A stretch of 64,000 bases of DNA from Psychrobacter pygoscelis (GTDB lineage: Bacteria; Pseudomonadota; Gammaproteobacteria; Pseudomonadales; Moraxellaceae), in NCBI RefSeq assembly GCF_004335015.1, contig NZ_RQRU01000001.1:806001-870000 (forward strand), written 5' to 3'. The translations under genes were made by a program, and so were the position numbers. Position 1 is the stretch's first letter. Each line of letters opens with the position of its first letter. The notes beneath the pieces were generated by a model. That model saw only the letters and a list, made by a program, of their open reading frames with translations, made no database searches and had not been told where the DNA came from. This document shows positions 41,450-42,354 of this stretch, piece by piece.

Positions 41450-41641
41450 GGGTGGTTATCATTAGTACCGACAAGTTGGTAATTATCTGCACCCAAGCAG
41501 GTTATGATGACTACCCTTATTGCTATTTTACGATTCAGTCAGCCCCTATTATTGTGAAACATATTTGTCACAATACAGAAAAACCACCTATAGCCGTTAT
41601 ATTTAATGTCATTCACCGCTACTTGTAGCGGTGTTTTTTTT
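41450..41641 (+). ncRNA. Possible small RNA or extended trmB 3' UTR ending in a strong terminator
   Basis: A strong terminator sits 225 bp after the trmB stop with no open frame between. It may end an independent transcript. No promoter pair is convincing, and a long trmB 3' UTR is equally possible. Confidence 0.2.
41614..41641 (+). terminator. Rho-independent terminator upstream of the DnaA-box region
   Basis: Stem caccgctac/gtagcggtg (9 bp as drawn, 8 bp with a 4-nt loop) followed by eight T. Confidence 0.9.
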
Positions 41642-41710
41642 GGACCAATCAATTAAGGCCTTGGCGCAAACGTAGGATTTATAAGGGCTAGAAAAGTTTT
41701 CCCCATTATC

Positions 41711-41731
41711 TGTGGATAACTATGTGGATAA
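41711..41731 (-). promoter_or_regulatory. Two perfect DnaA boxes
   Basis: tgtggataa at 41711-41719 and again at 41723-41731, i.e. TTATCCACA on the minus strand, with 12-bp centre spacing (about one helical turn). This is the high-affinity DnaA consensus with no mismatch. Confidence 0.75.
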
Positions 41732-41929
41732 CTTGACTCTTGACAGCGCACGACCTTTAAAACATATGGCTTTTGGTAAAATTGGTTAATTTTTATACAG
41801 TTATTTTATTATTTAAAATCAATAACTTATTTTGCAATATAGTTTATCGCAGATTTATTTAATATTTTTTATCCCATTATTTGAATTTTTTATGTTTCAC
41901 AAAACTGACATATAGTTTTTAATCTGCAC

Positions 41930-41938
41930 TGTGGATAA
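41930..41938 (-). promoter_or_regulatory. Third perfect DnaA box
   Basis: tgtggataa, same orientation as the pair at 41711-41731, on the far side of a very AT-rich block. Near-matches (ttatacag at about 41803, ttatcgcag at about 41844) lie between. Confidence 0.7.
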
Positions 41939-42354
41939 CTCATTTTTTTATTGACATTTACTTTAAATCAGCGCGCCAAAATTTACTGAAAATTTTTATG
42001 CTAATTTATGTCATTTTTTACGATTTTTTATTAACGGTGTTAACAACTAACATTAGCGTAAGACTAAGATAGCTGTGAACAAGGCAATCAGCTAGATTTT
42101 TGGGTTGTTTTTAACCTCTAATTAATCCCTATCTGTTAATCTTGCTAGTAATGATTTACTTATAGCCCGATTTAAATGTGCTGGTGACTGAGCTGATGCA
42201 TTCTTGATACCTTGTTAATATATTGCCGGTTGTTATTTATTCTTACAACCTCCTATCATGTCTTACCAGCAGCATAGCTGAACACTCGTTCGATAGTTGC
42301 GCGACATCTGATGTCGTATTGTCTGCGCTAACAGGTCATCATCACCCTTAAATT

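Follow-up and report, generated by a model that had tools for sequence, protein, structure and literature searches.

Sites of the DARS type, at which DnaA is reactivated, have been worked out in Escherichia coli; the species compared with it in detail are close relatives, at least in the excerpted parts of the literature considered here. In these excerpts, the head-to-head orientation of DnaA boxes I and II is described as characteristic of DARS and as functionally essential, and DARS-similar sequences are described as conserved in many proteobacterial species (PMC10380432). The core of DARS2 is reported to be conserved in gammaproteobacterial relatives of E. coli; in DARS2, both the sites for IHF and Fis themselves and their places matter, with shifts of 5 or 10 bp lowering activity (PMC4245941). 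A conserved spacing is described for E. coli-proximal beta- or gammaproteobacteria (PMC5742627), seven E. coli-proximal species are compared in another paper (PMC8682772), and two further excerpts deal with E. coli strains (PMC4585315) and with work in E. coli (PMC12371093). The datA locus is presented as one IHF site plus DnaA boxes (PMC10950094). According to the excerpt of a ChIP-seq study in E. coli, DnaA prefers pairs of boxes with a gap of 2 or 3 bp, including those in DARS1 and DARS2 (PMC11317965).

The E. coli loci were read from the MG1655 genome and scanned for DnaA boxes and for IHF and Fis consensus sequences. The boxes are found at 813107 (>), 813121 (<) and 813133 (<) in DARS1 and at 2969135 (>), 2969149 (<) and 2969161 (<) in DARS2, i.e., with steps of 14 and 12 bp at both loci. 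Counted from box I of DARS2, IHF consensus sequences lie at +93 and +109 and an exact Fis consensus at +145. The distance from oriC, as a fraction of the chromosome, is 0.206 for DARS2, 0.329 for DARS1, and 0.101 for datA.

The window, i.e., the whole stretch of 64,000 nucleotides of Psychrobacter pygoscelis DNA that was analyzed, contains a locus of ~240 bp (41697-41938) which, judged by its architecture, is very probably a DARS-type DnaA-reactivating element. Its parts, preceded by a hairpin, are the following.

41614..41633, plus strand: terminator-like hairpin followed by a T run, between trmB and the element (1 found vs. 0.6 expected)
41697..41705, plus strand: DnaA box I, TTTTCCCCA, one mismatch to TTWTNCACA, head-to-head with box II at a step of 14 bp
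41711..41719, minus strand: DnaA box II, an exact TTATCCACA
41723..41731, minus strand: DnaA box III, an exact TTATCCACA, 12 bp from box II and separated from it by a 3-bp gap ("double DnaA box")
41740..41745, plus strand: TTGACA, at a fixed offset after the core in 98 of 102 Psychrobacter elements
41784..41798, plus strand: putative Fis site, exact match to the consensus GNNYANNNNNTRNNC, within a strongly conserved block
41817..41829, plus strand: putative IHF site, exact match to the consensus WATCAANNNNTTR
41893..41901, plus strand: box-like TGTTTCACA, one mismatch to TTWTNCACA, present in 97 of 102 elements
41930..41938, minus strand: further DnaA box, an exact TTATCCACA, reading TGTGGAYAA on the plus strand in relatives, present in 89 of 102 elements

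Thus, the core leads from box I (>) at 41697 over 14 bp to box II (<) at 41711 and over another 12 bp to box III (<) at 41723, and it is followed, in this order, by the Fis consensus, the IHF consensus, TGTTTCACA and the third exact box. An initial annotation of this DNA had listed the three exact boxes, and a recount of the window confirmed their positions and their single orientation; four parts had escaped it, i.e., the TTTTCCCCA box, the Fis consensus, the IHF consensus and TGTTTCACA. Besides the TTGACA after the box pair, a second one is found at 41951-41956, after the last box. The TTGACA after the core is not a clear promoter: inspection by eye revealed no consistent second hexamer, and promoter-like sites in the gap stay at the shuffled level.

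The three copies of exact TTATCCACA (41711-41719, 41723-41731, and 41930-41938), all on the minus strand, are the only ones in the window, where 0.60 were expected from shuffled sequence and three were reached in 1 of 100 shuffles. DnaA boxes with one mismatch are at chance level (19 vs. 15.66 expected), and hence only the clustering of the exact boxes is notable. In the whole genome (3.41 Mb), exact TTATCCACA occurs 39 times, vs. 20 copies of a reversed control, and three boxes within 228 bp would arise with P = 0.00014 if 39 boxes were placed at random. All three boxes are contained in the gap between 41389 and 42659 (1271 bp); no stretch of the window that lacks an open reading frame of ≥100 amino acids is longer, in agreement with their reported location in the longest gene-free stretch. 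The AT-rich block noted earlier between the pair and the third box was also confirmed: the highest AT content of any 131-bp stretch scanned in the window (mean 55%; scan step 10) is 83%, for those with starts at 41771 and 41791. The neighboring genes code for TrmB (TIGR00091), RecA (TIGR02012), and a RecX-like protein that stays below the curated cut-offs. An Rfam scan of the window gave no match at gathering scores, and a tRNA scan of the window found none.

Boxes I-III of the element have the same orientation and the same 14/12-bp steps as those of DARS2, which is located upstream of mutH. As in DARS2, an IHF consensus in the same orientation is found downstream of the core, a Fis consensus is present, and further boxes lie beyond. 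The IHF consensus follows box III after 86 bp in Psychrobacter vs. 75 bp for the plus-strand site in DARS2, which is a difference of about one helical turn, and each locus is separated from the origin region by ~0.2 chromosome lengths. However, the order is core-IHF-Fis in E. coli vs. core-Fis-IHF in Psychrobacter, the neighbor is mutH in E. coli vs. trmB and recA in the window, and boxes II and III, which each have one mismatch to TTWTNCACA in DARS2, are exact TTATCCACA copies in the window. Since the order of the helper sites and the neighboring genes differ, the Psychrobacter element is a DARS variant rather than an ortholog of DARS2. DARS1, which is located upstream of uvrB, has the same core geometry, and its box II is an exact TTATCCACA as in the window, but neither an IHF consensus with up to one mismatch nor an exact Fis consensus is found in the stretch 31-200 bp from its box I. 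A search pattern for the core, with one mismatch allowed, matched DARS1, DARS2 and the element in the window, and gave no match in 8 kb around datA, in 2 kb of the E. coli oriC region or in 18 kb of the Psychrobacter dnaA region. The scan of the E. coli loci narrowed the initial reading, which had left open a datA-, DARS2- or oriC-like site, to DARS, and this option now draws support from the exact box I/II/III geometry of DARS1 and DARS2 plus the Fis and IHF consensus sites, which are predicted from consensus matches. With their 3-bp gap, boxes II and III in the window are also of the pair type that E. coli DnaA prefers, according to the excerpted ChIP-seq paper (PMC11317965).

The element is conserved in the genus. 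Searching 105 Psychrobacter genomes identified RecA in 103 of them, and 90 of these 103 have, upstream of recA, the two boxes in tandem at a step of 12 bp, both pointing the same way (regions of 2 kb, two of which were cut by contig ends). In nine of the other 13, the element is located beside trmB without recA (G032, G038, G039, G040, G044, G046, G055, G073, and G074), and in three (G062, G077, and G078) it adjoins neither gene, with ≤1.5 kb viewed per side; in the last one, G086, only 622 bp are available upstream of recA, a contig too short to judge. By pattern search, the core was found in 103 of the 105 genomes, with no match in G081 and G086. Non-conservation in relatives, which the initial annotation had named as a result that would speak against it, is therefore not what was observed. 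A RecA scan of contigs gave mostly distant species and two Psychrobacter rows among the matches listed. A contig titled Streptomyces cinereus (L005) codes for a RecA that is 84% identical to that of Psychrobacter, and it is probably mislabeled or contaminating.

A set of 102 Psychrobacter elements was compared, i.e., the 90 found upstream of recA and 12 others that were added, with the element of G062 left out. As these elements were selected with the pattern for boxes II and III, the full conservation of these two boxes is by construction. Box I deviates from TTWTNCACA by one base in 28 elements and by two bases in 74. An exact Fis consensus is present at one offset, +87 from box I, in 98 of the 102 elements, where ~5% would be expected to have one anywhere in shuffled stretches. 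The IHF consensus, at +120, is exact in 76 elements vs. 1% in shuffled stretches; with one mismatch allowed, it is found in 101, but then shuffled stretches alone give 21%. A tighter form of the Fis consensus, GNTYANNNNNTRANC, is present in two of the 102 elements, at +87, and in 11 of the 90 cores from the class discussed below, at +86. Its presence in just two elements means that the Psychrobacter site fits the loose Fis consensus only. Five Psychrobacter genomes (G040, G046, G055, G038, and G039) contain a second copy with a different end (L213, L214, L216, L219, and L220). By eye, these copies have no box like that at 41930, and TGTTCCACG replaces TGTTTCACA in four of the five.

The dnaA gene, with a cluster of boxes upstream of it, is located on another contig (C22) than the element, and the earlier statement that the boxes do not adjoin dnaA-dnaN in the window is correct. 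From their sequences, we take the neighbors of dnaA on C22 to be rpmH, dnaN, recF, gyrB, rnpA, yidC, and mnmE. In 15 Psychrobacter genomes, several of them in multiple contigs and two (G006 and G055) with rounded dnaA places, the distance between the element and dnaA is 0.182 to 0.279 of the contig (median 0.188), i.e., the element lies at ~0.19 chromosome lengths from dnaA. A shared gene order may partly account for the conservation of this distance. In G006 (C1, near 2019364-2019844), dnaA contains internal stops, probably because of a sequencing error. GC skew is negative in 30 of the 32 bins of the window, including the element (-0.010 and -0.038), and the remaining two, with positive values (0.003 and 0.041), lie ahead of it and end 3.7 kb away. 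In G065, a relative assembled in one contig and sampled at 20 points, skew is >0 from dnaA to ~1.1 Mb, ~0 up to ~1.55 Mb and <0 from ~1.7 Mb; its sign changes at dnaA and at ~1.2-1.7 Mb, and it measures -0.043 and -0.046 on the two sides of the element (2.545 Mb).

The genome contains genes for Fis, IHF alpha, IHF beta, and Hda, each scoring above one curated NCBIfam cut-off, although IHF beta does so barely (115.6 vs. 115 bits) and older IHF models are not reached. An HU-like protein in the genome stays below the HU cut-offs. The Fis domain is found at the end of an open reading frame of 194 amino acids (L332:1204-1788), which is about twice as long as Fis of E. coli, and the start may be located further in.

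Apart from a DARS, the locus could be thought to resemble datA, where IHF bound between DnaA boxes makes DnaA hydrolyze its ATP, or where the boxes merely soak up DnaA. Like in E. coli datA, an IHF consensus with DnaA boxes on either side is present, between the pair and the box at 41930, and these three boxes share one orientation; moreover, DnaA should also bind to strong boxes wherever they are clustered. However, datA has another position and other neighbors, and the head-to-head core with its 14/12-bp steps, present in both DARS1 and DARS2, is missing from the 8 kb read around it. In addition, the median distance to dnaA is closer to that of DARS2 than to that of datA. A datA-like site is, therefore, improbable. 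The initial annotation had also raised the option of DnaA-dependent control of recA, and the position of the box pair upstream of recA in most Psychrobacter genomes would fit with that. Yet, in 12 genomes the element is found away from recA, and its persistence where recA is gone indicates that it is not primarily a recA promoter. In the window, ~930 bp lie between the end of the core and the start of recA, and the number of promoter-like sites in the gap does not exceed the shuffled level (6 vs. 6.2). It is, thus, very unlikely that the element is mainly a regulatory region of recA.

Origins, too, contain box clusters, AT-rich blocks and IHF sites, and a replication origin or a secondary origin had been among the earlier options. 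This reading was rejected on the location of dnaA and its box cluster on C22 and the absence of a skew switch at the element: there is no lasting switch in the window, and in G065 the sign of the skew is the same to the left and right of the element. It is extremely unlikely that the locus, which adjoins no dnaA gene, serves as an origin.

If the locus is a DARS-type element, it may operate by analogy with the E. coli sites. ADP-DnaA would bind to boxes I and II in head-to-head orientation, with box III occupied beside box II, and an interaction of the two DnaA molecules at boxes I and II would loosen the ADP. By bending the DNA at 41817, IHF, together with Fis bound at 41784, could bring the core and the outer boxes together, and the action of Fis and IHF might ensure that the reaction takes place at the right time. 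The emptied DnaA would then depart, take up ATP and be able to start the next round at oriC.

The core is not restricted to Psychrobacter. In the family, it was found in 335 of 348 genomes and 15 of 16 genera, and in a sample of the class Gammaproteobacteria in 274 of 369 genomes and 209 of 272 genera, leaving 95 of the 369 genomes without a core at the threshold used. The 14-bp I-II step used in the pattern is that of E. coli and was not fitted. A reversed control pattern gave no match in the class sample among the matches listed, and a control with a step of 15 bp matched in 23 of 369 genomes; one of these matches is exact (G508), at least three of the 23 (G000, G518, and G403) are one-mismatch shadows of a 14-bp site, and the window's own site is among such shadows. 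At 60 core loci from other genomes (≤3 kb each), tblastn searches with the proteins of Psychrobacter (E ≤1e-4) detected no dnaA, dnaN, recF, gyrB, rpmH, rnpA, yidC, or mnmE; at these loci, the pattern is therefore not catching the dnaA region. In a large genus of the family (g2), which may, judging by its size, be Acinetobacter, the core is present in 174 of 175 genomes, as counted from the printed rows, mostly in two or more copies. One type of core in this genus is closely trailed by another TTATCCACA (L304, L305, L314, L321, and L327).

For a comparison of layouts, 90 cores from 76 genomes and 45 families of the class, selected by the core pattern only, were aligned on box I. They comprise 30 loci returned by searches and 60 picked by hand among the matches listed, so the sample is not random. 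An exact Fis consensus is found at +84 to +88 in 35 of them, whereas windows elsewhere contain 0.34 on average and 3 at most. Similarly, an IHF consensus with ≤1 mismatch is found at +117 to +122 in 50 cores (elsewhere mean 0.76, maximum 6), and an exact one in 21 (elsewhere mean 0.1, maximum 2). Both sites are present in 25 cores from 16 families, at least one in 60 cores from 33 families, and neither in 30. In genus g2, with windows one base wider, 23 of 30 cores have the Fis site, 21 the IHF site, and 20 both. When two cores were read in each of 14 genomes, the sites were found in one copy only in six genomes, at least one site was present in both copies in seven, and neither copy had any in one. 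This mixed pattern means that a simple split into DARS1-like and DARS2-like copies is not shown. There is about an even chance that core-Fis-IHF, with Fis at ~+86 and IHF at ~+120 from box I, represents the widespread and probably ancestral form of gammaproteobacterial DARS, of which E. coli DARS2, the site that served to work out the mechanism, is a rearranged offshoot.

Several points speak against the DARS reading. Box I is the weakest box, with two mismatches in most Psychrobacter elements, the IHF consensus is inexact in 26 of 102, and the order of the parts is core-Fis-IHF. Also the coreless genomes in the class sample, the cores with neither helper site and the resemblance to datA count against it.

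Among the titles and abstract beginnings listed in literature searches on DARS and DnaA boxes in Psychrobacter, Moraxellaceae, Acinetobacter, Moraxella, and Pseudomonas, none describes the element. DARS in proteobacteria at large have already been published; neither the element in Psychrobacter nor the core-Fis-IHF order was found in the literature searched. The analysis provides coordinates for a candidate element in Psychrobacter and a layout common to distant gammaproteobacterial families, which makes it testable whether the order of Fis and IHF matters for the recharging of DnaA, and the core pattern finds candidate DARS sites in unstudied genomes. Should the core-Fis-IHF form indeed be ancestral, then Fis/IHF-gated recharging of DnaA would be a class-wide device of the cell cycle.

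The neighbors of the cores were scanned as well, using 49 of 57 listed neighboring open reading frames, the eight omitted ones including all from two loci. In eight of the 28 class loci with scanned neighbors, priA, the gene for the replication restart helicase (TIGR00595, above the cut-off), adjoins the DARS-type core (L270, L272, L274, L291, L293, L294, L295, and L296). With uvrB, mutH, recA, and priA beside DARS sites, there may be a link with genes for replication and repair. The trmB gene adjoins the core in another family too (L276, in G518), which hints at an old neighborhood.
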